Positions 34,242 to 51,980 of a stretch of DNA of 64,000 bases are shown piece after piece. The stretch lies in contig JAFROW010000004.1 in NCBI GenBank assembly GCA_017429505.1, positions 163,411-227,410 of the forward strand, given 5' to 3'. A program made the position numbers and the translations under genes. The notes beneath the pieces were generated by a model that was not told the origin of the DNA, did no database searches, and worked only from the letters and a program-made list of their open reading frames with translations. This DNA comes from Clostridia bacterium (GTDB taxonomy: Bacteria > Bacillota > Clostridia > TANB77 > CAG-508). Numbering within the stretch: position 1 is the first letter of the stretch; each line of letters opens with the position of its first letter.

Positions 34242-35594
34242 CTATAATAAAGGCGTCATATATATAGGTAAATACAAAACATCATTTTCTTCTTTCAAAT
34301 CTCCTTGATGTACTATAATTGATTTATTTAAGTAATCTTTATATTTATTTTTAAATTTGTTTAATGAAGAAAAAGTATAGTTTTTGCCTGATTTCACTTC
34401 TATTGGAGTAATATTATGTTTTGATGTTATTTTACTTTTTGCAATTAAAAAATCTATTTCCATTCTTTCTGATGAATCTTCTCTACTACTTTTTGAATAA
34501 TAATATAATTTTTTCTTTGCTGCCACAAGCATTTGTGCAACAATATTTTCTATAATCATTCCTTCATTAAAACTTAACTTATCAAATAATATTTTTTTGT
34601 AAACTTCTTCATCTACCAATCCTTTTTCATCAAAAGCCATTGAAAGAAGCAACCCTGTGTCAAACATATAGCATTTAAATGAACTAGAATCCATATTGAG
34701 CTTTAAGCCTATATTTGGTTCTGTTGTATTATATGCAATATTTATAAGTCCTGCGTCTTGTAACCAATAAAATGCACCATAATATTCCCTATATCTAGCG
34801 TTAACATCTAATGAAGCTAAATTAAATTTCTTTTCGTGTTTTTGCAATTGTGCAGGAATATCATCAAATATTTGCTTAACTTTTAAACTTACATCTTCAG
34901 CATGTTTTCGGATATCATCCCTATATAGCTCTATTACATCTCTTTTTACTGCATCTACTTTTTCGAAATCTCTTGTTTCAGCATAAATTTCTACAGCTTG
35001 AGGTATCCCGCCAACTATTAGATATTCTTTAAAATAGTCCATTGCCTTTCTATGCATCGCTGGTTCTAATGGTATTTTTTTATTATAACACATTTTTATA
35101 AAATCCATTAATGTGTCATTCCCCATAGCCCAAACAAATTCTTCAAAATCCATAGGTTCCAATCTTAATTTATGTTCTTCTGAAGGAATCAAAATATCTT
35201 TTACATTCTTTTTAATAGACACTAATGAACCTGTTTCAATGTAATCATACCTTCCATCTGCAACTAAATGTTTAATAGCTCCCCTTGCTTTAGGACAAAA
35301 CTGCACCTCATCAAAAATAAATAATGTCTCACGTTCATATAATTTTGTATTAAAATATCCTGATAAATAAGTAAATAAATAATCTAAATTGTCCATATAA
35401 TTTTCAAATAAATCTTTTACAGCTTGTGAAACTTTTGAAAAATCTATCAATATATATGTTTTATAGTTTTCTTTTGCAAATTGCTCTGCTATATAACTTT
35501 TTCCAACTCTTCTTGCTCCATCTATTAATATTGCTTTTTTCCCTTGACTTTCATTCTTCCATTTGATTAATTCATCATATATTTTTCTTCTCAT
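34242..35594 (-). CDS. AAA_14 ATPase with DUF4143 nuclease-fold C-terminus, copy 1
   Basis: A 450-residue ATPase. Walker A is GARRVGKS (about residues 26-33), Walker B is TLFIFDEVQ, and ETGSLVSI fits sensor 1. A helical DUF4143 region follows. The C-terminus has a PD-(D/E)xK-like signature: EIDFLIA, then PIEVKSGK about 20 residues later. Such proteins are common in gut anaerobes and have no settled role. The ATG at 35594 follows GGGAGG. The promoter carries a tandem repeat array. Two relatives lie at 35966-37258 and 50533-51843. Confidence 0.88.
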   Translation of the reverse strand: MRRKIYDELIKWKNESQGKKAILIDGARRVGKSYIAEQFAKENYKTYILIDFSKVSQAVKDLFENYMDNLDYLFTYLSGYFNTKLYERETLFIFDEVQFCPKARGAIKHLVADGRYDYIETGSLVSIKKNVKDILIPSEEHKLRLEPMDFEEFVWAMGNDTLMDFIKMCYNKKIPLEPAMHRKAMDYFKEYLIVGGIPQAVEIYAETRDFEKVDAVKRDVIELYRDDIRKHAEDVSLKVKQIFDDIPAQLQKHEKKFNLASLDVNARYREYYGAFYWLQDAGLINIAYNTTEPNIGLKLNMDSSSFKCYMFDTGLLLSMAFDEKGLVDEEVYKKILFDKLSFNEGMIIENIVAQMLVAAKKKLYYYSKSSREDSSERMEIDFLIAKSKITSKHNITPIEVKSGKNYTFSSLNKFKNKYKDYLNKSIIVHQGDLKEENDVLYLPIYMTPLL

Positions 35595-35637
35595 GTTTAA
35601 ACCTCCCAATATAAACATTTTCATGTATTATAAATAT

Positions 35638-35666
35638 ATTATATCACGAAATCAGGATTTTTGCAA
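35638..35666 (-). promoter_or_regulatory. Promoter of AAA_14 copy 1, inside the repeat array
   Basis: TTGCAA (35666-35661), 17 bases, then TATAAT (35643-35638). The -35 box and the whole spacer lie within the proximal 33-bp repeat unit, so anything binding the repeats would compete with RNA polymerase. Confidence 0.75.
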
Positions 35667-35833
35667 GTTATATATTTCACGTTTTCAGGATTTTTACAAG
35701 TTGTGTATTTCACGTCTTCAGGATTTTTGTATTTACTATATGCTTTTGGTTGCATACTTTCTAAACAACTACCTACAATTATCATTGTTTCTTGAGTATC
35801 AAAACAATTTGTTTTTAATAAATCTTTCATCAT
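35639..35833 (-). pseudogene. 5' fragment of a possible ZmaR-like GNAT gene running into repeat array A
   Basis: A frame of about 64 codons starting MMKDLLKTNCFDTQETMIIV. AGGTGGTGAGA stands just before the ATG. The region around ETMIIVGSCLE followed by AYSKYKNPED resembles my memory of the N-terminus of GNAT proteins of the zwittermicin-resistance (ZmaR) type. After about residue 37 the frame is made of the 33-bp repeats and stops. It is probably a truncated gene cut where the AAA_14 promoter and array begin. The family call is tentative. Confidence 0.45.
35644..35734. repeat. Tandem direct-repeat array A (33-bp period, about 2.6 units)
   Basis: Units start at 35644, 35677 and 35710, each beginning TCACG and sharing TCAGGATTTTT and AAGTT. 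Read on the minus strand they encode an in-frame 11-residue repeat (CKNPENVKYIT). There is no spacer structure, so this is not a CRISPR array. Confidence 0.9.
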
Positions 35834-35842
35834 TCTCACCAC

Positions 35843-35884
35843 CTATACAATATCATCTTTCAAATCTTTATTAAACATCACTAT
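35843..35884 (-). pseudogene. 3'-end relic of a GNAT acetyltransferase gene
   Basis: The last 13 codons plus stop (IVMFNKDLKDDIV) match the end of the intact GNAT gene at 42034-42450 (IVMFNKDWKDDIVLN), nearly base for base. No further upstream homology is visible. Confidence 0.7.
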
Positions 35885-35965
35885 CTAAATATATTTTTTA
35901 ATTCTAGTATTAATTTTGGAAACATCTCCACATAGCACACTATCATTAATTCTAATCTATTATTC

Positions 35966-37258
35966 TCATGGTTTTAAAGCTGTAATTGGCACAATATAAA
36001 TACCAGTTTCTGGATCTTTTACTACTGCCGAACATTTTCCTACTATAACACACATAAATACTGGTTTTTTTACCATATTATCGTAGAAATTTAATAGACT
36101 TTTTTTTGCCTCATCTACTTGATTAAAGCCTAATTTTATTTCTACAGCAGCATATTCTCCATCTGAAAATTCTAAAATTGAATCTACTTCTAATCCCGTC
36201 ACATTATCTCTAAAATGATATAAATGTCCATCTAGATAATCCATATAAATTCTTAAATCTCTTTCTACTAATGCCTCGAACATAAATCCAAATGTATTTA
36301 AATCTTTTAAAAGTTTTTCTGTTGTTAATCCTAAGCAAGCACATGATAATGATGGATCGGTAAGATGTCTCTTAGGCGATTTTCCTACTCTATTAGGCGA
36401 ACGATAATTTTCACTATATGCCTCTTGATTTTCAATCAAATGAAGTCTATCTAGAACATCTAAATAGTCAATTACTGTATCTCTACTAGATAATAGTTCT
36501 GTTCCACTTTCATACTCTTCTATATCTTTTATTATTGTTTTATTCCCTACAATCGACGCTTCATTTCTTGCAAGTGATTTAAGTAACATTTTCATTTTAT
36601 TTTTATCTCTTCTCTTTTCCGCTTCCTCATTCATATCTACATTTAAAACAGAATCAATGTATGATTTTGGTATTAATCCAATTTTATTTTCACTTACATT
36701 TATATTAGCGGGCCAACCGCCTCTTATCAACAATTTTGCCAATTGTTGTATTTCTATGTTACCTGTATTAAGTGTTTCTTGTGTGTGATTTAACATATTG
36801 GTTAAAGAAGCTTCCCCTGTAGAATCTCCAGATTCATATAAACTCATAGTATACATATTTAATCTTCCAATTCTTCCTGCACCTGAATGATGTACTTTTT
36901 CTTTCATTATTTTATTTGGTAATGTTGTAGATCCTGTTATAATAAAATTACCTTTCTCAGTAGTTTTATCACATTCACGTCTTACTGCATCCCATATAGA
37001 TGGCACCAAATGCCACTCATCAATTAATTGTGGCCTTTTTTCCAAATCTTTATTAAAAATTGATTTAACATCTATTTTTGCCATTTCTCTTACATCATCA
37101 TCATCTATAAAAATTTCACTTTTAACATGCTTTAATGATGTCCAAGTTTTTCCACACCATTTTGGCCCTTCTATGCTTACAGCTCCAAATACGGATAAAT
37201 AATCTTCTAATTTCTTCTCTATTAATCTATTTCTATACTTTGCTTCATCTATAGTCAT
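35966..37258 (-). CDS. AAA_14 ATPase with DUF4143 nuclease-fold C-terminus, copy 2
   Basis: A 430-residue, more diverged relative. Walker A is GPKWCGKT, Walker B is RPQLIDEWHLV, and FIITGSTTLP fits sensor 1. The C-terminal nuclease-like signature is LEVDSILEF followed by AAVEIKLG. The ATG at 37258 has AGAGGTGAG upstream. The frame's earlier TTG/ATG codons read through the promoter. The gene has its own N17 promoter and a 23-bp tandem array. It does not form an operon with copy 1, since more than 350 bases of relics and array lie between them. Confidence 0.87.
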   Translation of the reverse strand: MTIDEAKYRNRLIEKKLEDYLSVFGAVSIEGPKWCGKTWTSLKHVKSEIFIDDDDVREMAKIDVKSIFNKDLEKRPQLIDEWHLVPSIWDAVRRECDKTTEKGNFIITGSTTLPNKIMKEKVHHSGAGRIGRLNMYTMSLYESGDSTGEASLTNMLNHTQETLNTGNIEIQQLAKLLIRGGWPANINVSENKIGLIPKSYIDSVLNVDMNEEAEKRRDKNKMKMLLKSLARNEASIVGNKTIIKDIEEYESGTELLSSRDTVIDYLDVLDRLHLIENQEAYSENYRSPNRVGKSPKRHLTDPSLSCACLGLTTEKLLKDLNTFGFMFEALVERDLRIYMDYLDGHLYHFRDNVTGLEVDSILEFSDGEYAAVEIKLGFNQVDEAKKSLLNFYDNMVKKPVFMCVIVGKCSAVVKDPETGIYIVPITALKP

Positions 37259-37277
37259 TTCACTCACCTCTTTATTT

Positions 37278-37306
37278 AATATATCATTTTTTAAACTAAA
37301 AGTCAA
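37278..37306 (-). promoter_or_regulatory. Promoter of AAA_14 copy 2
   Basis: TTGACT (37306-37301), 17 bases, then TATATT (37283-37278). The last repeat of array B ends six bases upstream of the -35 box. Confidence 0.75.
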
Positions 37307-37312
37307 TAATCA

Positions 37313-37375
37313 GTCGACACTTTTTAATGATTTTGGTCGACACTTTTTAACGTTTTTAGTCGACACTTTTTAATT
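37313..37375. repeat. Tandem direct-repeat array B (23-bp period, 3 units)
   Basis: GTCGACACTTTTTAA occurs at 37313, 37336 and 37359, with variable 8-base tails. Each unit holds the palindrome GTCGAC. The outermost unit encodes the last codons and stop of the DUF3021 gene (KSVD). Array D at 41885 has related units. Confidence 0.92.
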
Positions 37376-37799
37376 TTTTTTTATATTCATTAAGCATTTC
37401 TGTATATTTTTCTCCTTCTTTAGTTAAAATATTATCTGTTATCATAAATATTGTACAACCTAAAGTATATGCTATTATAAATCTTATGGCAATTCCTTGT
37501 ACTGAGGGTTGAAAAAATTGTTCTTTTATTGCAAATATTAAAATTACTACACATATAAAAAACAAAAGCAAAAATCCTCTTTTTGTATATGATAATTGTT
37601 TTAAAATTTTAGGTGATAAAAATATTCTTTCTAGTATAGCACTAATTACACATAGTCCAAAAATATTTATAAAATCCATTGTGGAAATTAATTCAATGTT
37701 AAAAATTTTTGCTCTAATTACCCAAAATATTGTAGTTGTTGAAATAGAAATAGCTAAAAATTTTAGTATTTCATTTGTTTCATATTTTAATTTATCCAT
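37356..37799 (-). CDS. DUF3021 family four-helix membrane protein
   Basis: 147 residues with four hydrophobic segments (about 12-32, 42-60, 72-92 and 103-123) and a charged C-terminus. Length, topology and pairing with a LytTR regulator fit DUF3021, whose members probably modulate the partner regulator. The start overlaps the LytTR gene end by eight bases. Its last codons lie within repeat array B, so the array has grown into, or supplied, the 3' end. Confidence 0.75.
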   Translation of the reverse strand: MDKLKYETNEILKFLAISISTTTIFWVIRAKIFNIELISTMDFINIFGLCVISAILERIFLSPKILKQLSYTKRGFLLLFFICVVILIFAIKEQFFQPSVQGIAIRFIIAYTLGCTIFMITDNILTKEGEKYTEMLNEYKKKLKSVD

Positions 37800-38256
37800 C
37801 TTTTTTTCCTCCTATTCCAATTTTCTTTTTAAATACTGAAACATATTGCCTTGAAATATAAATTTTTTCACCATTATCCATTGTCGCTAACATTTTGCCA
37901 TCAAATTCTGGTTTAACAGATTTTACTCTATTTAAATTTACTATAAAAGATTTTGAAACTCTTAAAAATGATGTATCTTCATATTTTTCATCTATTTCAT
38001 ATAATCTCATTCCTACTTCAAATACACCATCTTCTGTATAGCAAAATGTTTTTCTATCTACAGTTTCAAAATATAGAATTTCATTTTGATCTAAACAATA
38101 TGTTTCTCCGTGAGATATTCCTATAATTTTCTTTTCACTATTATTAATATTTTTTATAAAAGAAATTAATTTTATAATATTTTCATCTGTTTTATTACAT
38201 TCAATGTTAATTATTGTTTCTTTTATATCTGAATTTTCTATTATATTAACAATCAA
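37792..38256 (-). CDS. LytTR-domain DNA-binding regulator
   Basis: 154 residues. There is a short N-terminal region without a receiver domain, then a LytTR domain from about residue 50: LDQNEILYFETVDRKTFCYT and FLRVSKSFIVNLNRVKSV. These stand-alone LytTR proteins are encoded with a DUF3021 membrane partner and often regulate themselves. Targets are not visible. AAAAGGAGA lies upstream of the ATG. Confidence 0.88.
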   Translation of the reverse strand: MIVNIIENSDIKETIINIECNKTDENIIKLISFIKNINNSEKKIIGISHGETYCLDQNEILYFETVDRKTFCYTEDGVFEVGMRLYEIDEKYEDTSFLRVSKSFIVNLNRVKSVKPEFDGKMLATMDNGEKIYISRQYVSVFKKKIGIGGKKDG

Positions 38257-38366
38257 TTTTTATCATCTCCTTTTGTAGCTACTACATTTATTATAATAAA
38301 AAATATAAAAAAAACAATACTTATGCACATAAGATGCTAAATATTGTGTATAAAATGCTTTTGTAG

Positions 38367-38397
38367 GATACTTTTAGGGACACCTTCCAAAAGTATC
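38367..38397. repeat. Palindromic intergenic element
   Basis: A perfect 9-bp stem GATACTTTT/AAAAGTATC with a 13-base loop containing AGGGACACC. Related sequence lies at 45181-45209. The T-rich side points along the plus strand, where there is no gene, so it is more likely a REP-like element than a terminator. Confidence 0.5.
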
Positions 38398-38408
38398 TCT
38401 TTTTATTA

Positions 38409-38729
38409 TTATATTACTCCAAAAGCAGGAACATTTATTGTTACCGCTTCAAAAGATCCTTCAGCTGAATAATTAGTATTTTTATCTAAATACAATACAT
38501 CTCCACTTTCAAGGTGTACTTTTTCTCCATCTATAATAAAATTTGCATTTGCACTAATAAAATAATATACTCTTTCATTTTTTAATTTAGTTAAATCTAA
38601 TCTCCCATCTAATTTCGTAACTGCTAAACTTATATTTTCTGTAGTTTCTTTTGTTAAATAATTATCCGCAAAATGTACCTCGCTAATGTTTCTCCTCACT
38701 TTTTGATTTTTCGATATTTTTTTGTACAT
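38409..38729 (-). CDS. Small cupin-like protein
   Basis: 106 residues. Beta-rich, with YYFISANANFIIDGEKV and LESGDVLYLDKNTNYSAEG, the GD-containing turn typical of single-domain cupins. The metal-binding His residues of enzymatic cupins are not evident. GAGGAG is seven bases before the Met at 38729. The longer ATG at 38744 overlaps that site. Function unknown. It is followed downstream by a palindromic element. Confidence 0.6.
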   Translation of the reverse strand: MYKKISKNQKVRRNISEVHFADNYLTKETTENISLAVTKLDGRLDLTKLKNERVYYFISANANFIIDGEKVHLESGDVLYLDKNTNYSAEGSFEAVTINVPAFGVI

Positions 38730-38746
38730 AGTCATTCTCCTCATAT

Positions 38747-39370
38747 TTATAATTTATTAATTAGATACTCACATATTTTCTTATGCCCATTTGTATTTGG
38801 ATGTAATCCATCTATAAAATCTTCTTTTTGCAATACATCTTTCATTGGTATGTATTTGATTTTATTTTTTTTGCAAAGTACTTCAAGTTCGCTGTCAAAA
38901 TTTAATATTGATTGCAAATCCTTATCATATTCAGATATAACTTCATTATCATACTTATTAGGTTTCCACAAAAACTTTTCACCACATTCTATTCGAGTTA
39001 ATCCTAGAATTATTAAATCACAATTATTTTCTAAAACTATTTTTGTAATTTTACATATATTTTCTTTGAATTTTTCTATACTATTTTTCTGATTTCCGTT
39101 AAATTCTTTTGTATCATTTATTCCAATAGAAAGTATTACTATGTTTTTAAATTCTTCGTGCTTAAATGATTTCAAAATACTTTCTATTTTATTTAATATA
39201 TCTGTGCTTGTTGCTCCTGGAAAACCAGCAATATGAACATAATTATTGCATACTTTCGAATCGTCTTTATTTACTATATAGTTTTTAAACATTGTTGCCC
39301 ATCCATTAGTTTCAAAATCTCCTATGCCATAAACTATACTATCACCACAAATAATAATGTTATTTTTCAT
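38747..39370 (-). CDS. SGNH/GDSL-family hydrolase
   Basis: 207 residues. Block I is GDSIVYGIG with the Ser nucleophile, block III is ILSIGINDT, and block V is DGLHPNTNGH with the Asp-His pair. The protein has no signal peptide and so is probably cytoplasmic. It is an esterase or lipase-like hydrolase of unknown substrate. The gene follows the alpha/beta hydrolase by 12 bases. Confidence 0.88.
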   Translation of the reverse strand: MKNNIIICGDSIVYGIGDFETNGWATMFKNYIVNKDDSKVCNNYVHIAGFPGATSTDILNKIESILKSFKHEEFKNIVILSIGINDTKEFNGNQKNSIEKFKENICKITKIVLENNCDLIILGLTRIECGEKFLWKPNKYDNEVISEYDKDLQSILNFDSELEVLCKKNKIKYIPMKDVLQKEDFIDGLHPNTNGHKKICEYLINKL

Positions 39371-39382
39371 TTATATCACCTT

Positions 39383-40165
39383 CTAATTATTTTCATATAA
39401 ATCTTTTATAAAATTAACGCTAACTTCTATTGCCTTATTCAATGCTTCTTTATCATCTGCAAATGCGTGTGTTCCTTTTTCAATTAATTCTAACTTTGAA
39501 TTTTTACATAATTTTGATACTTTGACTGATAATTCATAAGGAATCATAGTATCATCAAGTCCATGCACAAATAACTTCGGTAATTCAACATTTATTAGAT
39601 GTTTATATGGCACTATTTTATATACTTCATTATATAATGGTAGTCCTAATTTAAATATTTTTCCTGTCCTCTTGCTTTTTATTTGATAATATCCTTGTTT
39701 TTCAGCAATTTTTTTATGTTCTTCTGTAAAGAAACCTTCTGGTTCAATTGTAGCAAGGTAATCTAATGCTCCATACCACAAAATTAAACCTTTTATGGTT
39801 GGAAATTTTTTATAATCTAGTAAAGACAATATGCTTGCACCAAAACTTGCACCCAAAATAACTATTTCGTCAAATCCTTTTTTATTTAACATTTCGATAG
39901 TCTTTTCTAAATCTTTAACTTCCTTTGTAGGAGTCATCTCATAATCATTTCCTGTACTTTCGCCATGTCCTCTAAAATCAAATCTAAAAGAATTTATTTT
40001 TTTCTCCTGCAATTTTTCAACTAAATCATTAAAACTATTTCTCTCCGTTTTATCTCCATTAAAGCCATGACATAATAAAACTAATTCTTTGTTATCATTT
40101 ACTTTAGAAAGTAATCCACATAATTTGATATTATCAGTACTTTCATAATATAACTTCTCTTCCAT
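39383..40165 (-). CDS. Alpha/beta hydrolase
   Basis: 260 residues. LLCHGFNGDKTERNSF forms the oxyanion region, ILGASFGASI has the nucleophile Ser in a GxSxG elbow, HGLDDTMIP carries the Asp and EKGTHAF the His. The whole triad is present. The fold matches serine-aminopeptidase-like hydrolases (Hydrolase_4). Cytoplasmic. It probably forms a short transcription unit with the SGNH gene. Confidence 0.88.
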   Translation of the reverse strand: MEEKLYYESTDNIKLCGLLSKVNDNKELVLLCHGFNGDKTERNSFNDLVEKLQEKKINSFRFDFRGHGESTGNDYEMTPTKEVKDLEKTIEMLNKKGFDEIVILGASFGASILSLLDYKKFPTIKGLILWYGALDYLATIEPEGFFTEEHKKIAEKQGYYQIKSKRTGKIFKLGLPLYNEVYKIVPYKHLINVELPKLFVHGLDDTMIPYELSVKVSKLCKNSKLELIEKGTHAFADDKEALNKAIEVSVNFIKDLYENN

Positions 40166-40243
40166 ATATTTTCATCTCTTTCTATTTAAATAAATTCTAA
40201 TAATTATTTAAATTTTGATATTTTCTAATATTCTTCCACTATT

Positions 40244-40741
40244 TTACATTTTATCACATATAATTACTTTTTTAGTTTTATTTATAAAATCAATAATCTC
40301 AATTGTTTCTTGTTCATGAATATCTAATTTAGAGTTTATTCCCCAAATCTTACATTCTGTTATTTCCGCTTTTATTAAAACTTCATTTTCTAATAAAGTA
40401 TAACTTTTATATGTTTCAAAATGCTTTCGTTTAATTAACTCTATAAAATCATCATTTTGAATTGGTTTTCCTACTATTTTAGCTTTTCCTTTAAAATTAT
40501 ATGCACCAATATTAAATGCAATATTGTTATTTTCCTGAATATTTCTTATTTTTTCAAATGTTTTGTCAGTTTGAAAATATACTATAAGTCCTTTATTAAC
40601 TATACACATCTGTGCTGTTGAAACAATACCTTTTTTATTTGAAGTAGCTATTGTAGCAAATTTTGTATTTTTAATTAAATTATCAATTTTATTAATTTCT
40701 TCTTCTAATCCTATTTCATTTAAATATTCAATATTATCCAT
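40244..40741 (-). CDS. Pyridoxamine 5'-phosphate oxidase-like FMN-binding protein
   Basis: 165 residues with the split-barrel pattern: TKFATIATSNKKGIVSTAQM, then IVYFQTDKTFEKIRNI and the GAYNFKGKAKIVG strand. It fits PNPOx-like proteins, which bind FMN or F420. The true pyridoxamine oxidase C-terminal dimerisation region is lacking, so vitamin B6 synthesis is not implied. Confidence 0.8.
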   Translation of the reverse strand: MDNIEYLNEIGLEEEINKIDNLIKNTKFATIATSNKKGIVSTAQMCIVNKGLIVYFQTDKTFEKIRNIQENNNIAFNIGAYNFKGKAKIVGKPIQNDDFIELIKRKHFETYKSYTLLENEVLIKAEITECKIWGINSKLDIHEQETIEIIDFINKTKKVIICDKM

Positions 40742-40875
40742 AAATTCTTCTCCTCGCTCCTACACATAATTTATTTTGTTTCCATTATTTTGTAATCATT
40801 TAAATTTTTCATTTACATTCATCTCCTACTTTGTAATTTTTTCATTTTTAAAATCATTTAAAATATATAAATTAA

Positions 40876-41859
40876 TTATTTTCTAGCTATATATAAATCT
40901 GCTGTAGTTGGTATTTCTTCAATTCTTTTAATATCTGTAAACTTACTTTCTTTTAGTAAATTTTTTATTTCACTATGTGTATATACTTTCCCATCTTTAG
41001 AATTTACAAGCATTTCAATTGCAAATTGAACAGAAAATTCCGGACTTATTTTGTCATCATTTAAGAAAAAGCTTGTTAAAAATATTCTTCCATTTGGTTT
41101 TAATACATCATAAATATTGTCTAATAATTTTTTCACGTTATCTTTAGGTTCCTGATGTATTACTGCAAATAAAAATACATCATCATATTTTTCTTTTGGA
41201 AAACACTCATTATAATCACAAGAAACGGATACTAATCTATTTTGTAAATTTTCTTTTTCTATATTTTTATTCTGAATTTTAGATACTTTTGGTAAATCTA
41301 TCATTTTTCCTTTAACAGACTCATACTTTTTAGCTACATTTATTAAATATGTACCTGCTCCTGCTCCAACATCTAATATAGTATGATTTTCAAAATTATA
41401 GTTATTTGCTATATATTCTGCCTGTGGAATAGCGTTTGCTTGCATACCATTAATAAAATTATCTGCCTGTTCATCTGTCAAGTCCCTAAAATTTTTTAAT
41501 GAAAAATTATTATCTTTTATTGCATTTTCTAAATTATCATATTTCATCATTACTGTTTGAGCAAAATCAATATATCCTGTTTGATTATATTTTGAATTTT
41601 TAAGCAAAATATCCTTATACTGCTCTAAAAAATACCCATTTTCACTTTTACATATAATTTTATGATAAACTAAACCATTTAGAATAGGTTCAATTTTTAT
41701 ATCTGTAACATTTAATTCTTCTGATATTTGCTTTAAACTTTTTATATCTTCTGATAAACAATTAAAAATACCCAAATTGTTTGCTGTTATTATTAAGTAT
41801 GTTAATTTATAGCTGTTTACCATTGATTTTAAATTACTTATTTGTTCCTTAATTTCCAT
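40876..41859 (-). CDS. SAM-dependent O-methyltransferase (winged-helix dimerisation type)
   Basis: 327 residues. An N-terminal winged-helix dimerisation region (LKQISEELNVTDIKIEPILN) precedes a Rossmann SAM domain with ILDVGAGAGTYLINVAKKY. LFAVIHQEP is near the catalytic region. The layout resembles methyltransferases of secondary metabolism (Methyltransf_2). I choose the Met at 41859, which follows GGAG. The longer frame to 41940 only reads through repeat array D. A relic of a second copy's 3' end lies at 44013-44123. Confidence 0.85.
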   Translation of the reverse strand: MEIKEQISNLKSMVNSYKLTYLIITANNLGIFNCLSEDIKSLKQISEELNVTDIKIEPILNGLVYHKIICKSENGYFLEQYKDILLKNSKYNQTGYIDFAQTVMMKYDNLENAIKDNNFSLKNFRDLTDEQADNFINGMQANAIPQAEYIANNYNFENHTILDVGAGAGTYLINVAKKYESVKGKMIDLPKVSKIQNKNIEKENLQNRLVSVSCDYNECFPKEKYDDVFLFAVIHQEPKDNVKKLLDNIYDVLKPNGRIFLTSFFLNDDKISPEFSVQFAIEMLVNSKDGKVYTHSEIKNLLKESKFTDIKRIEEIPTTADLYIARK

Positions 41860-41884
41860 ATTTTTCTCCATTTTCCAACAAATT

Positions 41885-41950
41885 TGATATACATTTTTTA
41901 AGAAATTTAATATACATTTTTTAATAATTTTAGTCGACATTTTATTTGCA
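41885..41950. repeat. Tandem direct-repeat array D (23-bp period, 3 degenerate units)
   Basis: Units start at 41885, 41908 and 41931, sharing T-A-ACATTTTT-type cores. The third unit (TAGTCGACATTTT) resembles the units of array B. The array lies directly upstream of the methyltransferase gene, where no AAA_14 gene is present. Confidence 0.8.
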
Positions 41951-42033
41951 TTTATTTAAAAATTTTTATGTTTTTTATTTGTATGTAAAACTCTTATATT
42001 ACTCATTTTTCTTGTTCCTCTTTCCCTTTATTT

Positions 42034-42450: not shown

Positions 42451-42486
42451 AGTTTTTGTCTCTCCTATCTTTCTTTATTTACATTA

Positions 42487-43988: not shown

Positions 43989-44012
43989 AACCGATTCCTC
44001 TCAAACTTTTAA

Positions 44013-44123
44013 TTATTTTCTAGCTATATATAAATCCGCTGGACTTGGTATTTCTTCAATTCTTTTAATATCTATAAACTTACTTTCTTTTAGTAAATTT
44101 GTTATTTCACTATGTGTATATAC
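44013..44123 (-). pseudogene. 3'-end relic of an O-methyltransferase gene
   Basis: About 36 codons plus stop (VYTHSEITNLLKESKF to DLYIARK) match the C-terminus of the methyltransferase at 40876-41859 with few changes, at DNA level too. No rest of the gene is present. The sequence diverges abruptly at about 44124. Confidence 0.88.
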
Positions 44124-44183
44124 TCATTTGGATATCTGAAATGCTGTTTCCAATTACTAATAATTTTTTATATTCCTAACCTC

Positions 44184-44532: not shown

Positions 44533-44533
44533 T

Positions 44534-45076: not shown

Positions 45077-45180
45077 AATTTCGCCTCCATATTTTTAAGT
45101 TTTATTACTTTTATACTAATAATGTCAAATTTATTTTAATATTTTTCATTATGCACCCTACTTATTTGAAAAGATGTTTT

Positions 45181-45209
45181 TTTAGGTTCCCTAAAAGTAT
45201 CCCTAAAAT
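45181..45209. repeat. Intergenic element related to the palindrome at 38367
   Basis: On the minus strand it reads TTTTAGGGATACTTTTAGGGA followed by ACC and poly-A, two imperfect copies of a TTTTAGGGA unit. It shares GGATACTTTTAGGGA with 38366-38380. Confidence 0.45.
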
Positions 45210-45216
45210 CATTTTC

Positions 45217-46113
45217 CTAATGTTCTGGTTCTTCTGGCTCACCAGCTGAATCTGAGTTCGTTAGCTCATTTTTTCCAGGGCCATATTTAGCCATACGCTC
45301 TCTAATTGATGTAATTCCTATTTCTGTTGGTCCCTTTCCATAAGCTGCTTTAGCCTCTTCAATTGTAATTGTATCTATACTATTTCTTTTTTCTAAATAA
45401 AATTCATGTCTTTTTTTATAAAATTCATCTATCCAGACAAAACCATTTTTATCTACTATAAATCCTCCTTCTTCTAAATATGCGACTTTACGTTCTTCTA
45501 TTTTTAAAGAGTTACATTTTATATGTTTGCTATCGGCAAATCGTTTTGCTAGTTCATCTATTCTATAAAGCGGATTAAATTCATTTATTTTATCAAACGG
45601 ACTACTATTCCCACGTTTAGAATCACTAGATTGAGGTGAAATGGCATACTCAAGATTTTGCGCACAATTATAAAATCCACAATCCCATAATGCATCTTCA
45701 ACACTCTCATAATATCCTTCTAACACATCTTGAATTTCAAAAACCTGTACTAGACTTTCTAACTTTGTTGCAACTTCTTCTTGCTCACCATTAGCATAAA
45801 TTCTATATGCTTCTCTACTACAATTATATGTGAAACCTAAAATCCCATCACGAATTAATCTAGTTATACGTCTTTTATTGTCCTCAGATAATTTTCCTAA
45901 TTCAATATATTTGATATCACTTGACTCATCTCTATTACTACACATAAATGTTCCTATGTTTCTTTCCCATAGAGCCATACATGCCCTTTGGCATTCTGGT
46001 ATAACATATTCGCCTATATTTGCTTGAACTACATGCCATGGCATATAAAGATAATTATATTGTGATTCTGTATGATTTGGCAATACATACTTCCCTTTAT
46101 CAACACTATTCAT
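45217..46113 (-). CDS. Uncharacterised 298-residue protein
   Basis: Family not recognised. It is soluble and rich in acidic residues. A segment at about 36-60 reads VIPECQRACMALWERNIGTF, with two Cys, followed by FMCSNRDESSD. Two further Cys lie in DALWDCGFYNCAQNL. The tail is Glu/Pro/Ser-rich (SAGEPEEPEH). AGGGAGAG precedes the ATG. It sits between the phosphatase-like gene and def with a repeat element on both sides. Confidence 0.6.
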   Translation of the reverse strand: MNSVDKGKYVLPNHTESQYNYLYMPWHVVQANIGEYVIPECQRACMALWERNIGTFMCSNRDESSDIKYIELGKLSEDNKRRITRLIRDGILGFTYNCSREAYRIYANGEQEEVATKLESLVQVFEIQDVLEGYYESVEDALWDCGFYNCAQNLEYAISPQSSDSKRGNSSPFDKINEFNPLYRIDELAKRFADSKHIKCNSLKIEERKVAYLEEGGFIVDKNGFVWIDEFYKKRHEFYLEKRNSIDTITIEEAKAAYGKGPTEIGITSIRERMAKYGPGKNELTNSDSAGEPEEPEH

Positions 46114-46150
46114 TTTAAACTCTCTCCCTTGTAAAATATATTTAGTTTTT

Positions 46151-46194
46151 TGAGGTCACCTTCCTCTTTGGCTAATAGAACCGTCCCTTTGTCC
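46151..46194. repeat. GGGACGG-type element, copy 3, read into a coding region
   Basis: On the minus strand it contains GGACAAAGGGACGGTTC and ends GGTGACCTCAAAA. It forms the last codons of the inositol-phosphatase-like gene (VGQRDGSISQRGR), so the element has extended that protein. Confidence 0.5.
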
Positions 46195-46923
46195 AACTTC
46201 TAGTCTTTCATTTTCACTGTACTTTGCTTCCTTTTTTAGTAATTCCAAAAATCCAGTACTGTTTGCACCAATATGGCAACCATCTTCATCAAAAATTTTG
46301 CCTCCTGCTTGTCTAACTAAATAAAGTCCAGGTACATAATCCCAAGCATTATTTTTTCTGTAAATACATGCACTTAATCTTCCACAAGCAACCCAAGCAA
46401 AATTAATACATGCACAAAAATTGCAATCATTTTTATTGTATTCTCTCATTTTGGCAGTTCCAATTATTCCATTACCTGCTGTTACTGCATACATACCATT
46501 TTTCGTAGATAGATTATTTACTTGTATTTTTTCTCCATTTAAAAAGGCTCCATTTTCATCTGCATAATATAATTCATTTAGTTTTGGTAAGAAAATTACA
46601 GAACTACAAGTTTTTCCATTTCTTATACAAGCAACTTGAATTCCCCAAAGTGGTAACCTATTTGCAAAATTGATTGTTCCATCAATTGGATCAATTGTAA
46701 AACAATTTTCTGTTAAATTATTGTCACTATTATATTCTTCACTTACTATTGTAAAATCTGGATAATTTTCTTTTATTTGTTCAATCATATAGTTTTCTAT
46801 TTCTAAGTCAAAATTTGTAACTAAATCTCCATCGTTTCCTTTTGCCTTTACTTCAAACTCATCTGTTATAAGTTTATTGGCATTTTTTACTAAATCAATT
46901 AAAAATCTTGTGTCTTTATTCAT
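46156..46923 (-). CDS. Inositol monophosphatase family protein
   Basis: 255 residues. Metal-site motifs are IVSEEY, the signature DPIDGTINFANRLP, and the C-terminal AWDYVPGLYLVRQAGG. All ligands of lithium-sensitive magnesium phosphatases are present. The substrate could be inositol phosphate, PAP or a sugar phosphate. The last 15 or so residues are encoded by a GGGACGG-type repeat and are probably not part of the ancestral protein. Confidence 0.9.
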   Translation of the reverse strand: MNKDTRFLIDLVKNANKLITDEFEVKAKGNDGDLVTNFDLEIENYMIEQIKENYPDFTIVSEEYNSDNNLTENCFTIDPIDGTINFANRLPLWGIQVACIRNGKTCSSVIFLPKLNELYYADENGAFLNGEKIQVNNLSTKNGMYAVTAGNGIIGTAKMREYNKNDCNFCACINFAWVACGRLSACIYRKNNAWDYVPGLYLVRQAGGKIFDEDGCHIGANSTGFLELLKKEAKYSENERLEVGQRDGSISQRGR

Positions 46924-46966
46924 TTTATTTACACCTCTATACTTAAATGATTTCCCTAATGACTAA

Positions 46967-47239
46967 TTATTTATTTGTCTTATTTTTGTCTTCCCAAGCT
47001 TTTCTTACAAAACCTAATGAAAGAGTAGATAAGGTAAAACCAATAACTGGCACTAATGAGCTTAATAATATATTATCATAATTTCTTATTACATATGAAT
47101 AAGTGATAACAACAATATAAGTCAAAATCATTATACATATTTTCCTTGTCCAACAAGTTTCCCATTTTTTATCTAATTCAACTCTTTTATTTCTTGTTTT
47201 TATATTTTCTATTTCTTGTTCTATTTCTTTTAAATCCAT
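46967..47239 (-). CDS. Small two-helix membrane protein
   Basis: 90 residues. A charged, coiled-coil-like N-terminus (KEIEQEIENIKTRNKRVELD) leads to two hydrophobic segments (about 32-50 and 57-77), with a short basic end. There is no recognisable family. GAGG precedes the ATG. Confidence 0.55.
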   Translation of the reverse strand: MDLKEIEQEIENIKTRNKRVELDKKWETCWTRKICIMILTYIVVITYSYVIRNYDNILLSSLVPVIGFTLSTLSLGFVRKAWEDKNKTNK

Positions 47240-47326
47240 TTTTTATTCCTCTTTTCTTAATTTTTTTATTATACTACTTTCAACAACTTTTCTAAAAGAT
47301 ATAGTCTGTCAGATCATTTATATGGT

Positions 47327-47347
47327 TTATAAGTCTATATCTGCATA
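47327..47347 (-). pseudogene. 3'-end relic matching the HD-domain gene
   Basis: The reading YADIDL-stop and about 15 bases after it match the end of the HD gene at 52103 (YAYIDL-stop). Roughly 30 of 36 bases agree. The match is short, so it is only suggestive on its own. Confidence 0.4.
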
Positions 47348-47374
47348 TATCCCAATACTTTATCTCAAATATTA

Positions 47375-48025
47375 TTATATCTCAATAGTTTCATCATTTT
47401 CAAGTATTTTGTATTTCACTTCATATTTTTCAAACATTGCTTTTATATAATCAAAATCTGGTGGAAATGCTGGATTATCCATATGAATAGGAATTGTTAA
47501 CTTTGCTTCAACTTCTTTTGAATATAAAGCAGATTCAAAGGCTGACATTGTTAAGCCATGTCCTGTTACAGGAATACATAAAATATCTGCTTTGTAATCA
47601 TTTTGGAAGCATATTGTATCACTTGTTGTATATAATCTATTTTCTCCATCATCAACAATATAACCAACATTTTCATTAATTTCTTTTCCTTTTAATAGTG
47701 GTTGATATCCATGTATAGCATGCACTACTTCAATAGTTATATCTCCCATTTGAAATACATCTTTTTCTTTAATAATGTTTATATTTAAATCTTCATTTGC
47801 ATTTTGTACTTCTCTAGTAGAATATATGGTTATGTTTTTGTTTAATTTTTTTAGAACCTCTGCATTACAATGATCTGGATGTTTATGTGTTATTAAAATA
47901 ATATCTACATTATTCCAAATATCAAAATATTCTTCTTTATATTTTAATATTCCCGGATCTATCAATATTCTTTTTCCTTTTGTTTCAATTAGTAAACATG
48001 ATTGTGGAAATTTTGTAATTTTCAT
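47375..48025 (-). CDS. Metallo-beta-lactamase-fold hydrolase (UlaG-like)
   Basis: 216 residues. The metal motif is THKHPDHCN (HxHxDH form, with the second His changed to Lys-His-Pro order), then HAIHGYQP, TSDTICF and PVTGHGLTMS, ending in PIHMDN. It resembles L-ascorbate-6-phosphate lactonase/UlaG-type MBL proteins. The substrate is unknown, and most such stand-alone proteins are hydrolases of phosphate esters or lactones. Confidence 0.87.
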   Translation of the reverse strand: MKITKFPQSCLLIETKGKRILIDPGILKYKEEYFDIWNNVDIILITHKHPDHCNAEVLKKLNKNITIYSTREVQNANEDLNINIIKEKDVFQMGDITIEVVHAIHGYQPLLKGKEINENVGYIVDDGENRLYTTSDTICFQNDYKADILCIPVTGHGLTMSAFESALYSKEVEAKLTIPIHMDNPAFPPDFDYIKAMFEKYEVKYKILENDETIEI

Positions 48026-48043
48026 AATTAGCTCCCCTTTCTT

Positions 48044-48538
48044 TTATTCAGCACCTACTATTTTTGAAATGCTTTCTATCAATTCATCAGCTATATTTAT
48101 ACTACATGCGTGTCTATTATTCTTAAGATAATCTATATCAACCCATTTAGCAGTTTTAGCATATTCTTTTTCATCTTCATCAAAACCTTCATCTGAAATT
48201 TCTCCATCAACTATTTTAACAAAATAATAAATCATATAACTCTGATAATCTTTATTTTTCTTTTTATGATGAAAAAATGATGTATATATATTTAACAATT
48301 GAATAGGCTCTACTATATATCCTGTTTCTTCTTTTACTTCACGTATTAGAGTTTCAATATGTGTTTCTCCTTTTTTGGCAGTCCCTCCCGGATAATCATA
48401 GCCATCATACTGCGGAGATATTAAAATTTTATTATTTTTTATAGCAATCCCATAAAGATGAACAGATATATCTAATTTTTCTGAATCTACAATATATTCA
48501 TTATTATAAACATCGTGTGTAATAGTTTTATTATCCAT
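48044..48538 (-). CDS. NUDIX hydrolase
   Basis: 164 residues. The Nudix box runs from GTAKKGETHIETL through REVKEETGY, with the conserved Glu pair. It cleaves a nucleoside diphosphate linked to X. The second substrate-binding region does not show which. It lies just downstream of a truncated NUDIX gene. A GGAGGG site stands before the ATG. Confidence 0.9.
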   Translation of the reverse strand: MDNKTITHDVYNNEYIVDSEKLDISVHLYGIAIKNNKILISPQYDGYDYPGGTAKKGETHIETLIREVKEETGYIVEPIQLLNIYTSFFHHKKKNKDYQSYMIYYFVKIVDGEISDEGFDEDEKEYAKTAKWVDIDYLKNNRHACSINIADELIESISKIVGAE

Positions 48539-48593
48539 ATAATTCGTCCCTCCTTTAGTGTTTCTAGCTTGTTTATTCCTTTTGGATTAAGTG

Positions 48594-48764
48594 TTAGCCA
48601 TCTAATAAATCTTCGTTAGCTTCTACATGTCCTCCTGGTAACTCATATTCTCCATCACAAAATCCAGTATTTTTTCTTAAAACCAATAGTACTTCTTTTT
48701 TTCCACTGTTTTCTCTATTTAACATTAAATCAACTACAATTGCGCTCTTATATCTTTCTTCCAT
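48594..48764 (-). pseudogene. Truncated NUDIX hydrolase (5' half only)
   Basis: 56 residues from a well-placed ATG (GGAAGGAGATATTC upstream). It reads YKSAIVVDLMLNRENSGKK and then YELPGGHVEANEDLLDG, and stops inside the Nudix box before the REUxEE part. It is not similar enough to the next gene to be its recent copy. It cannot be active. Confidence 0.8.
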
Positions 48765-48777
48765 GAATATCTCCTTC

Positions 48778-49494
48778 CTAACTAATACTGTTCACTTTTT
48801 TAATCAATCTTTTCTTATTATTTTCGAAAATTTCCTTCCTATGTCCATTAGCTCCACTAGGATGCGGAAATCCAAACAGAATAGTGTATTTATTGTTTAT
48901 TATGGAATTATCTATTAAATATTTTAATACTTCTTCAACTGCTTTTCCTAATGGAATTATCACTACATTTTGCAATTCATTTATTTCGCTTATAAAATAT
49001 TTTTTTATATATTTGAGTAACAATTCATTACATAAAATATCTGGATTATGTCCATTATAATTTTTACCATTAATAAAAACAGGATATTTTATCAATGATG
49101 TTGTGTGTAACAAGTTATTATCTTCATTAAATAATTCACTAGATGAATCTAATTTAAATTTTTTATTAAGTCCTATTTGATCTAGCATATCTATTAAGTT
49201 TTTTCTCATACTGCCAGAAAATCTAGAGTTATATTTACATTTTTTTAAAATATCTATAATTTCTATATTATTAACTAATCCTTCATTTGCTGTTTTAAAA
49301 GCAATTTGTGTTTGAGTCCATCCTGGAGTAATTCCAATTACAAAAATTTTTGCTTTTTTATTTACAAATTCATTATGCGGTGCATAATATATATTAATTT
49401 TTTCATCTTTTTCTAATAAAAATTTTTTATTTAATATATCTTCTTTTTCAAATCTGTTTAATTGTATAATTTTATCAATATAATTCTCAAACAT
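48778..49494 (-). CDS. Uracil-DNA-glycosylase-superfamily protein
   Basis: 238 residues. It has IFVIGITPGWTQTQIAF (position of the GxDPG water-activating loop) and FGFPHPSGANGHR (position of the HPS/HPSP DNA-binding loop), with VVIIPLGKAVEEVL between. This fits the UDG fold, but the catalytic acid of motif 1 is replaced by Thr-Pro. It may bind DNA without glycosylase action or cut another lesion. GGAG lies before the ATG. Confidence 0.75.
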   Translation of the reverse strand: MFENYIDKIIQLNRFEKEDILNKKFLLEKDEKINIYYAPHNEFVNKKAKIFVIGITPGWTQTQIAFKTANEGLVNNIEIIDILKKCKYNSRFSGSMRKNLIDMLDQIGLNKKFKLDSSSELFNEDNNLLHTTSLIKYPVFINGKNYNGHNPDILCNELLLKYIKKYFISEINELQNVVIIPLGKAVEEVLKYLIDNSIINNKYTILFGFPHPSGANGHRKEIFENNKKRLIKKVNSIS

Positions 49495-49555
49495 TTCTTT
49501 CTCCTGTTATTCTTGTATCAATATGTGTACTTGGCTCAAATAGAAATACTTTCAT
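49487..49555 (-). pseudogene. 3'-end relic of a cupin gene
   Basis: 23 codons (MKVFLFEPSTHIDTRITGE) include FEPSTHIDTR, identical to the end of the frameshifted cupin at 44184. The DNA match is about 29 of 33 bases. The relic overlaps the ribosome site and start of the UDG-like gene. Confidence 0.7.
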
Positions 49556-49565
49556 TGTTTCATCC

Positions 49566-50477
49566 TTATTTCAAGTAATTACTAACTATAATACTTTCTT
49601 CTTTTTCATTTATTGTTGCTTCTGCTCCTATTGGAATTATACTGTTTCCATGTCTGTGTCCAAAATCATTAGTTTTTACAACAGGAATGTCAGCATTTAT
49701 CTTTCTTAATTCTTCAACAATATCATATTTATTTTCTTTTGCATATTGAAGTTGGTAAATGTAGCCAAATACTATTGCTTTATTTAATACACCCATCTGA
49801 TTAATTTGCTCTAACATAGCATTCCACTGTATAATATCAGAATGATAACCTTCTAAAAATAATATTGAATCTCTTAAATCTGGCATATATGGCGTTCCTA
49901 ATAGTTTTAACAAGCATCTAACATTAGTTCCATATATTTTTCCTTCTATCACTTCATCTTTAAAATTATAGAACTTTCTGTTATCGAAAGGAATAATTGT
50001 ATTGTTTGCATTAAATAATTTATCCACAATTTCATTTTTGTCATAGTCTGTTACTTCGTCTTTGCCGAACCATATGTAGTCTTGGCAATGAAAAGTAATT
50101 AGTCCTGTCATTTTATTTATTGCACATAGCAAAACTGTAATATCACTCATTCCGCAAAATATTTTAGGATTGTTTTTTATATTATCGAAATCTATATATG
50201 GTAGTATTCCATTTACCATATCTCCGCCTTTTACTGTAAAAATAGCTTTGACTTCCTTATCACTAAACATATTATTTAAATCTGTTGCTCTTTGCAAAGG
50301 AGTTCCTGCACAATATTCATCATCAGAATATAAATATTTCCCATATTTTACTTTTAGTCCCAAACTTTCAAAATACTTAGTTGCATTTTCTAAATACACT
50401 TTATCTGTACTTTTTAAAGCTTTATCTGGAGCAATAACACCTATTGTGTCTCCCTGTTTTAATTTTTGTGCTAACAT
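49566..50477 (-). CDS. LD-carboxypeptidase / MccF-like S66 peptidase
   Basis: About 303 residues. It opens LKQGDTIGVIAPDKAL, and the nucleophile lies in FCGMSDITVLL (GxSD). TFHCQDYIWFG and IKGKIYGTN-type segments follow, with a likely catalytic His in FGHRHGN. The S66 family contains murein LD-carboxypeptidases and MccF, which breaks microcin C-type nucleotidyl-peptides. The sequence seems closer to the MccF type. The ATG at 50477 follows TAGGAGGA. Upstream in-frame codons lie in the AAA_14 copy 3 gene tail region. Confidence 0.87.
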   Translation of the reverse strand: MLAQKLKQGDTIGVIAPDKALKSTDKVYLENATKYFESLGLKVKYGKYLYSDDEYCAGTPLQRATDLNNMFSDKEVKAIFTVKGGDMVNGILPYIDFDNIKNNPKIFCGMSDITVLLCAINKMTGLITFHCQDYIWFGKDEVTDYDKNEIVDKLFNANNTIIPFDNRKFYNFKDEVIEGKIYGTNVRCLLKLLGTPYMPDLRDSILFLEGYHSDIIQWNAMLEQINQMGVLNKAIVFGYIYQLQYAKENKYDIVEELRKINADIPVVKTNDFGHRHGNSIIPIGAEATINEKEESIIVSNYLK

Positions 50478-50532
50478 AAAATTCCTCCTATATTCAAATA
50501 AAATAATTACCACTTTGTATATATTTTTATTA

Positions 50533-51843
50533 TTATATACAAAAAGCCGCATACAAAGGAATAGATTTAATATTATTCTCAAATCCAAAATTTCTAGTTG
50601 AAAATCTTATAGCATATTTTGGCTTAAACTCTTCCATATACATATTTAAACTAACAGATCTAACATTATTTCCACTTTTAACTTCTATTGGTATTATTCC
50701 GTCTTCATTGCTATATAAGGCAAAATCTATTTCAGCATTTCTGTCTGAAGTCCAATAATATAATGATTCACCTTTTGCAGTTAATTCTTGTGCTATATAA
50801 TTTTCAGTAATTGCACCTTTATAAATAAAAGTTTTGTCTAGCATAATATCTGGATATTTAATTTCACTCATACAAGTTAGTATTCCAACATCACTTAAAT
50901 AAATTTTAAATGTGTTTTCATCTATATAAACTTTTAAGGGGATTTCCATTCTTTTTGACTTATAATTTATTAATATTAATTTTGAAGCAACTAGCCAATC
51001 AATAGCACTTTCATATTTTCTTTTTCGTGCATTTTCATCATTATCATCAATAAAATTATATTTAAAATTCTTTTTATCTTTAGCTAATTGACTTGGAATG
51101 TTTTTATACACTTTTTCAATTTTGACTGTTTCTATTTCGCTAGTTACATATTTTTTCATATCTGCAATATATGAATCTTTAATATCTTCGATTATGTGCG
51201 AATCGAATTTTAAAATATCCAAATCATTTTCTACAAAATTTTTAACTGCTTCCGGCATCCCTCCAACACATAAATACTGCTTGTATAAAGTTAATGCTTG
51301 CTCATGTGCATATTCCGGCATTGGCGACATATTAGAATAACACTCTTTTATCTTGTCTCTTAGCATATCTTTTCCTGTAGCTAATAAAAATTCTTCAAAA
51401 TTCATTGGATACATATATTCCATTCTAATTTTTCCCACAGGAAACGATCCTTTAAATCTGTTAATCTTAACTCCTAATAAACTACCTGCACATATTATTT
51501 TATATGGCTTAGTAGATTCATTAAAATACTTTAGTGAAACAATGCAATTTTCACTTTCTTGAACTTCATCAAAAAATATTAATGTTTTTTCAATATCTAT
51601 CTTTTTACCTAAATATAGCTCTAAATTGCTTATTATCTTTTCATCATCAATTGTATCCTCGAAAATGCTTTTAACATCTTTATTTTTTTCCAAATTAAAA
51701 TATAAATATTCCTCATAATTTTTTTTTGCAAATTCTTCTATAATAAAAGTCTTTCCTATTTGTCTTGCTCCTACAACCATTAAAGGCTTTTTCATTCCTG
51801 ATTCTTTCCAATCTTGTAATGTTTTTTCAAAAAATCTACGCAT
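50533..51843 (-). CDS. AAA_14 ATPase with DUF4143 nuclease-fold C-terminus, copy 3
   Basis: 436 residues. Walker A is GARQIGKT, Walker B is TLIFFDEVQ, and ICAGSLLG fits sensor 1. The helical middle domain has the LPxxEFLLATG-like NFEEFLLATGKD. The C-terminus shows EIDFALYS then PIEVKSGNN, a PD-(D/E)xK-like signature. It is closer to copy 1 than to copy 2. The ATG at 51843 follows GGAGG. Two abutting tandem arrays lie upstream of its promoter. Confidence 0.88.
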   Translation of the reverse strand: MRRFFEKTLQDWKESGMKKPLMVVGARQIGKTFIIEEFAKKNYEEYLYFNLEKNKDVKSIFEDTIDDEKIISNLELYLGKKIDIEKTLIFFDEVQESENCIVSLKYFNESTKPYKIICAGSLLGVKINRFKGSFPVGKIRMEYMYPMNFEEFLLATGKDMLRDKIKECYSNMSPMPEYAHEQALTLYKQYLCVGGMPEAVKNFVENDLDILKFDSHIIEDIKDSYIADMKKYVTSEIETVKIEKVYKNIPSQLAKDKKNFKYNFIDDNDENARKRKYESAIDWLVASKLILINYKSKRMEIPLKVYIDENTFKIYLSDVGILTCMSEIKYPDIMLDKTFIYKGAITENYIAQELTAKGESLYYWTSDRNAEIDFALYSNEDGIIPIEVKSGNNVRSVSLNMYMEEFKPKYAIRFSTRNFGFENNIKSIPLYAAFCI

Positions 51844-51865
51844 TTTTTTACCTCCATTCAAGTTA

Positions 51866-51894
51866 ATTATAACATAAATTTATTTAATAAGCAA
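51866..51894 (-). promoter_or_regulatory. Promoter of AAA_14 copy 3
   Basis: TTGCTT (51894-51889), 17 bases, then TATAAT (51871-51866). Array C begins eight bases upstream of the -35 box. Confidence 0.75.
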
Positions 51895-51902
51895 TAATTT
51901 AT

Positions 51903-51980
51903 GCCACTTTTTGCAGGTATAAATTTTAAATTTTCGCCACTTTTCGCGGGTATAATTTTAAGATAACTGCCACTTCAAAT
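51903..51980. repeat. Tandem direct-repeat array C (33-bp period, about 2.4 units)
   Basis: Units start at 51903, 51936 and 51969. Each begins GCCACTT and the first two share GGTATAA and TTTTAA. On the minus strand the shared core is AAAAGTGGC. Confidence 0.9.

Follow-up and report, generated by a model that had tools for sequence, protein, structure and literature searches.

Tandem repeat arrays of clade-specific period at the predicted promoters of AAA_14/DUF4143 ATPase-nuclease genes

Tandem DNA sites spaced about two or three helical turns apart, and bound by a protein encoded next to them, are characteristic of iteron-bound Rep initiators and of the parS-type arrays of plasmids. Here we report short direct-repeat arrays before three ATPase-nuclease genes (genes A, B and C) of a Clostridia bacterium; unlike Rep iterons and parS arrays, these sit at the gene's own predicted promoter, with no replication or partition role indicated. 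The genes lie in a stretch of 64,000 nucleotides (assembly GCA_017429505.1, contig JAFROW010000004.1, positions 163,411 to 227,410), hereafter the window, and are assigned to PDC-S01, a phage defence candidate family of PADLOC-DB 2.0.0. According to the accessible part of its description, PDC-S01 ranks fourth among the commonest defences of prokaryotes and consists of an ATPase fused to a PD-(D/E)xK domain, like the window proteins, and most such defence candidates still await validation (PMC12988326).

Direct repeats at the promoter of a defence locus have been described for RptR. According to the accessible part of the source, this repressor of a restriction-modification/DarTG2 island binds three direct repeats cooperatively and so represses a promoter of the defence island (PMC12255303). 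The window loci share with it the direct repeats at the (predicted) promoter of a defence-type gene. RptR is a small, separate regulator, and its repeats are 9 bp long, whereas in the window the ATPase-nuclease is itself the presumed regulator and the units measure 23 or 32-33 bp; binding was demonstrated for RptR (PMC12255303) and is presumed here. In the literature searched, partly accessible and with preprints and most subscription journals outside its scope, we found no report of promoter arrays, period classes or autoregulation of PDC-S01, and no account of how the family works.

The genes, arrays and predicted promoters are as follows, with positions counted from the first letter of the window and with clades as defined below.

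34242..35594, - strand: gene A, AAA_14 + DUF4143 ATPase-nuclease of 450 amino acids (aa), clade C, PDC-S01 (Pfam, PADLOC)
35966..37258, - strand: gene B, AAA_14 + DUF4143 ATPase-nuclease of 430 aa, clade B, PDC-S01 (Pfam, PADLOC)
50533..51843, - strand: gene C, AAA_14 + DUF4143 ATPase-nuclease of 436 aa, clade C, PDC-S01 (Pfam, PADLOC)
35630..35729, - strand: array A, three units of 33 bp (AAAAATCCTGA..CGTGA), the last unit reaching into the -10 box (Tandem Repeats Finder, TRF)
37305..37380, - strand: array B, three units of 23 bp (TTAAAAAGTGTCGAC + 8) (TRF)
51896..51980, - strand: array C, 33-bp units, two good and one degraded, core GCRAAAAGTGGCR (TRF)
35638..35666, - strand: predicted promoter A, TTGCAA-N17-TATAAT, covered by array A (consensus scoring)
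37278..37306, - strand: predicted promoter B, TTGACT-N17-TATATT (consensus scoring)
51866..51894, - strand: predicted promoter C, TTGCTT-N17-TATAAT (consensus scoring)

An earlier note on this stretch had placed three such genes at these coordinates, each preceded by short direct repeats of period 33, 23 and 33 bp, and both points are confirmed. All three products have AAA_14 and DUF4143 matches above the Pfam cut-offs (respectively E 1.5e-22 and 4.1e-23 for gene A, 7e-14 and 1.5e-29 for gene B, and 4e-24 and 3.7e-28 for gene C), and the PADLOC PDC-S01 profiles match them over nearly their full length (best E 3.5e-112 for A, 6e-59 for B and 6e-152 for C). A role in phage defence, raised in the note as a possibility, is plausible by this family label. 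TRF located array A at 35652-35729 (period 33, score 128), array B at 37312-37380 (period 23, score 110) and array C at 51896-51975 (period 33, two overlapping rows scoring 95 and 90); these are the top three TRF scores in the window, the next array reaching 87. The same periods were obtained with a lag score: within the 250 bases before the start, the 24-position window agreeing best with the sequence a set lag away is scored, and 19/24 counts as a match. At the annotated starts the best lag matches are 22 for A (33 bp), 21 for B (23 bp) and 21 for C (33 bp), and 2 of 58 other open reading frame (ORF) upstreams examined in the window reach 19/24 at any lag from 12 to 60, one of them being gene A under an alternative start. 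As had been proposed, array A overlaps the predicted -35 box and extends into the 17-bp spacer. By the TRF limits array B ends 6 bp and array C 2 bp before the predicted -35, with N17 spacers in both promoters, so that the distance of 6-8 bases given in the note holds for B and is too long for C. Array C also contains a third GTGGC copy, degraded, at a distance of 33 bp farther upstream.

Relatives were collected with a DUF4143 profile search of 55 related genomes (matches in 42, among the matches listed) and 149 phylum-wide genomes (matches in 48), and by querying a public genome collection with gene C, which biases the relatives from that collection towards clade C. From the latter, 80 loci of 144 relatives were kept and 77 used; L056, L089 and L095 were excluded, their match starting inside the gene or at a contig end. 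A further 80 regions were fetched for relatives. This gave 219 genes, 211 of them with a start and at least 150 nt upstream; start codons were set by our own rule. The tree was built from 202 distinct near-full-length proteins (370-560 aa), some of which were found among the neighbours. Clade limits were taken from the printed tip order once the labels were known, and monophyly and support were checked afterwards: clade B (18 proteins, including gene B) and clade C (119 proteins, including genes A and C) are each monophyletic with a FastTree support of 100. One clade C gene with less than 200 nt upstream was omitted, leaving 118 for the counts. As controls we took unrelated genes from these loci that had a gap of 100 bases or more (n=431, a few of which may count twice where neighbouring loci overlap). 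Among 724 'control' neighbours, 15 were family homologues, some of them fragments of target genes, and were removed; TRF arrays were present in 10 of these 15, and arrays scoring at least 60 in 20 of the remaining 709. TRF alone is less sensitive than the lag score, reaching 60 or more in 76 of the 211 genes, all clades included.

Judged by the lag scores, the array period follows the protein clade. In clade C, 84/118 genes have a match at lag 31-34 and 2/118 at lag 22-24, while clade B shows the reverse, with 16/18 at lag 22-24 and 0/18 at lag 31-34. The other DUF4143 clades give 0/64 at lag 31-34 and 1/64 at lag 22-24, the unrelated neighbouring genes 8/431 and 7/431, and dinucleotide shuffles at most 0.3% at either lag range. 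When any lag from 12 to 60 is admitted, matches are found at 18/18 genes of clade B, 84/118 of clade C, 9/64 of other clades and 28/431 controls. Fisher tests against the controls give p 5e-61 for clade C (84/118 vs 8/431) and p 4e-22 for clade B (16/18 vs 7/431), values that are nominal only, related genes not being independent. Among representatives at less than 60% identity, the array is present in 24/39 of clade C and 6/7 of clade B. Upstream repeats, expected in the note at AAA_14/DUF4143 genes in general, are thus strongly enriched over unrelated genes in two clades of the family, and are not in its other clades. Within the genome of the window, a fourth DUF4143 gene (L001, G000:C3:15700-19194), which appears broken in frame, also has an upstream repeat (lag 32, 19/24), bringing the count to 4/4 family genes.

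Read along the coding strand, the clade C core consists of an A-tract and then GTG (AAAAA-N-GTG), between variable flanks. A motif search of 37 array stretches, some of them with hosts from Bacillota, Bacteroidota, Pseudomonadota, Actinomycetota and Chlamydiota, reached a log-likelihood of 171 vs 81-101 for four shuffles, which were mononucleotide and given 8 restarts vs 25 for the real set. The search assigns one best site to each sequence regardless of quality, and with site scores of 4.8-12.6 some sites fit poorly. In 73 of the 77 arrays that could be anchored with confidence, the core is found on the coding strand; 7 of the 84 were left unanchored, and several arrays read as dyads by eye. 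Arrays A and C both anchor on this core, contrary to the view in the note that the three window arrays share no sequence. The unit cores are nevertheless private to their arrays: in the 1.98 Mb genome the exact A core occurs twice, the B core three times and the C core twice, all within their own arrays. With one mismatch the C core has four further single sites, and with two mismatches the B core has one further site vs four for a reversed-pattern control. A wider regulon was considered and rejected, as the exact cores occur only in the arrays and none of the mismatch sites of the B and C cores lie close together. Viral contigs searched for phage decoys with one two-copy C-array pattern gave 0 matches.

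Relatives from viral contigs and plasmids largely follow the same pattern. These relatives, comprising virus-derived, plasmid and named records, were assigned to the C or B type by similarity, outside the tree. Thirty virus-derived C-like loci were found, of which 2 partial and 5 duplicate ones were dropped; of the remaining 23 distinct genes, 11 pass at 32-33 and none does so at another lag. Seven virus-derived B-like loci were found, with 1 duplicate and 1 partial dropped, and together with two plasmid genes (Collinsella, and Lentilactobacillus at 26% identity) the 5 virus-derived genes form a B-like set of 7. All 7 peak at 23 or 46; 4/7 reach 19/24 and the rest 17-18, with the starts of L326 and L327 adjusted manually. 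Named records were picked for taxon spread (11/60 plasmid and 2/13 phage, and for gene B 3/209), and 9/13 of the C-type records named as plasmid or from phage collections reach 19/24 at 32-33, the assigned start being uncertain for the Fusobacterium gene and for one phage contig. The positive records are from Segatella copri, Segatella hominis, Collinsella, Vibrio coralliilyticus, Acinetobacter towneri, Criblamydia, Agathobacter rectalis and two unclassified phage-collection contigs. A 33-bp array is also seen at the C-type gene LK433_RS14040 of Segatella copri DSM 18205. On one Collinsella aerofaciens plasmid both types are found, a C-type gene whose period is 33 bp (24/24) and a B-type gene whose period is 23 bp (17/24).

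In clades B and C alike, the ATPase and nuclease residues hardly vary. The Walker positions K31 and D92 are each conserved in 118/118 proteins of clade C, and K37 and D80 in 18/18 of clade B. At the PD-(D/E)xK-like positions, clade C retains D373 in 114/118, E387 in 117/118 and K389 in 118/118, and clade B retains E357, D359, E373 and K375 in 18/18 each; all nine positions checked in clade B are kept in 18/18. A nuclease fold of the C-terminal part is supported by weak Pfam nuclease-family matches in clade C (NERD in 46/87 and UPF0102 in 13/87 members). By eye, a pattern resembling a helix-turn-helix can be made out in the middle region, most clearly in the other clades. PDB sequences searched with a clade C profile gave 9 matches at E up to 1, of which only Midasin was significant, in the Walker region, and searches of NCBIfam and PHROGs returned nothing informative.

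We consider it fairly probable that each gene is an autoregulated single-gene module, whose protein binds its own array and represses its own promoter until an invader releases it. The AAA+ ATPase-nuclease would occupy two to four tandem sites at the strong sigma-70 promoter of its own gene, with contact probably made by a winged-helix segment that lies between its ATPase part and its nuclease part, and the bound protein would repress that gene cooperatively. Site spacing would be set by the geometry of the protein, giving 32-33 bp for clade C proteins and 23 bp for those of clade B, and the sequence read at each site would drift, which would keep each copy on its own switch. An invader might draw the protein off the promoter, or alter its nucleotide or oligomeric state, whereupon the promoter would be released and the nuclease made. 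We infer binding by the encoded protein, the winged helix, the direction of control and the trigger from the sequence, and the release on invasion is a conjecture. In the accessible part of one study (PMC4406477) a Thermus AAA_14/DUF4143 gene, TT_P0211, is tabled at 6.6 among genes changed by plasmid DNA; TT_RS11170, a relative in the same organism that may or may not be this gene, has no array. The encoded protein is taken as the probable binder because the period is fixed by clade, the unit sequences differ between copies and the hosts are distant. Repression is favoured because the predicted promoters are good and the arrays lie variably over or beside them, a placement which would fit occlusion better than precisely spaced activation. 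That the protein might be stored on its private array as a sensor complex, from which disturbance by an invader would both free the nuclease and release the promoter, is a tentative thought and rather unlikely; if true, one protein and one array would make up a whole inducible immune switch.

A conserved cis-element of clade-set period offers a direct handle on PDC-S01, predicting the target of the protein, the spacing of the bound units and the switching, and is also a cheap sequence marker of the subfamily.

Several results weigh against the autoregulatory reading or narrow its reach. Thirty-four of the 118 clade C genes fall below the threshold, with a weaker core pair at 32-33 in 10 of these 34 (vs 8/431 controls), and phylum-wide genes of clade C pass in 2/17 only, so that part of the clade has a weaker array or none. 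Among the named records those from Fusobacterium and Bacteroides uniformis have no array by the lag scan, that from Vescimonas has 20/24 at lag 42, and that from Parabacteroides reaches just 17/24 at 33. The Thermus thermophilus HB27 relative TT_RS11170 (24% identity), which is not among the 7 B-like genes, has no array. Period 33 may also reach beyond clade C, because a group of 11 DUF4143 genes of 470-490 aa outside that clade (L133, L138, L140, L141 and L196-L200) leans weakly to lag 33 (z 4.5). Site similarity tracks protein similarity weakly: the partial correlation has small peaks, at aa 1-30, 201-250 and 351-390, which extend beyond the proposed DNA-binding part, and the sites of paralogues are no more distinct than those between genomes (7 vs 219 pairs). 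The winged helix is proposed from the by-eye reading of the middle region, and the only Pfam family named for a winged helix-turn-helix is PF24409, matched in 2/87 members with a best E of 0.0048 (among the best 25 of 77 families). The promoter calls themselves are soft: the TRF arrays of clade C end upstream of the predicted -35 in 32/61, overlap the promoter in 25/61 and lie downstream in 4/61, and those of clade B end upstream in 8/17 and overlap in 9/17, with all 78 arrays having passed the promoter score cut, no shuffled control, and some predicted promoters plainly far from their array.

These placements bear most directly on a reading in which the array is an activating or assembly platform, with the protein oligomerising by the -35 box and recruiting RNA polymerase, or sitting there primed. 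The arrays that end just upstream of the predicted -35 occupy the usual place of an activator; however, many predicted promoters are near consensus and should need none, and the overlapping and downstream arrays of both clades do not suit it, which makes activation unlikely in our view. The arrays might also be bound by another regulator encoded elsewhere, since binding by the gene's own product is itself presumed. Such an arrangement would require one dedicated regulator per copy, and it sits poorly with exact units of the window copies that have no matches elsewhere in the genome and with a period that goes with the ATPase clade across several host phyla. Annotated neighbours, moreover, differ between the named records, among which no systematic search for a constant partner gene was made. 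We hold a separate regulator to be quite improbable.

Highly improbable, too, is the suggestion that the array is the recognition site of the module's own nuclease, through self-cutting, homing or as a mobile end, which would make the element selfish. It would agree with the kept active-site residues and with the alignments of many closer relatives, where nucleotide homology is confined to the array, promoter and ORF; in more distant relatives the homology lies inside the ORF, and in L038 it extends to 50137. These borders are no sharper than those of an ordinary neighbour, however: the adjacent gene at 52103-53137 is equally shared without its surroundings in genomes of the genus, and no empty site was seen at the 9 loci inspected of 20 fetched. 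A mobile cassette was rejected on these grounds. The self-regulating module of the earlier note is well supported by sequence, through its private, promoter-proximal repeats and clade-locked period, and its selfish side is not supported. Functionless slippage in AT-rich DNA, finally, would draw on the composition of the regions (AT content 0.715 in clade C upstreams and 0.694 in controls; 0.73 in array-positive and 0.68 in array-negative upstreams), and it is scarcely credible given a period fixed by clade, rates of 1.6-1.9% in controls and at most 0.3% in shuffles, and the presence of arrays in Collinsella, L306 and other relatives of lower AT content.

Periodicity of another kind was found in a sister ATPase-nuclease family, PDC-S27 (ATPase_2 + DUF234), which was chosen as a negative control and proved unsuitable, having a 15-bp periodicity of its own near promoters. 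The DUF234 genes (L223-L242), assigned to PDC-S27 in PADLOC for 3 proteins scanned, have their best lag at 15 in 8/16 (combined z 9.2; L224 and three genes shorter than 400 aa were omitted from the 20 loci), and 2/20 reach 19/24 at that lag. Their units, e.g. TTAGTAACT, differ from the window arrays in period, are shorter and weaker, and by eye lie mostly downstream of -10. The finding hints at a principle across a wider class of ATPase-nucleases. A DUF4143 clade of about 400 aa (the L206-L221 group; 20 genes, support 100) has its best lag at 39-40 in 10/20 (z 5.7), and palindromic sites are seen by eye near its promoters (e.g. at L213, L221 and the second gene of L161). The signals of the DUF234, 400-aa and 470-490 aa groups are weaker than those of clades B and C, and derive from several small groups tested at 51 lags each with no correction.

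No defence island is evident from the 10 neighbours scanned, a subset of those in the window, which match no PADLOC model at E 0.001; genes A and B adjoin. A defence neighbourhood led to the published identification of such candidates and need not surround every copy. Within the genus (G000-G034) the number of DUF4143 matches per genome varies from 0 to 16, among the matches listed. On a related contig (L035:6001-10470), C-, B- and A-type genes stand side by side, each with an array, those of the B and A types being detected by TRF and that of the C type by lag alone. Upstream of a non-family gene at L043:4908 there is a two-copy array of period 23 with a AAAAAAGTGG-like unit. In the window itself, an AT-rich 23/34-bp tandem array (TRF 87 and 80) occupies 41869-41967, at the start of ORF 40876-41940.

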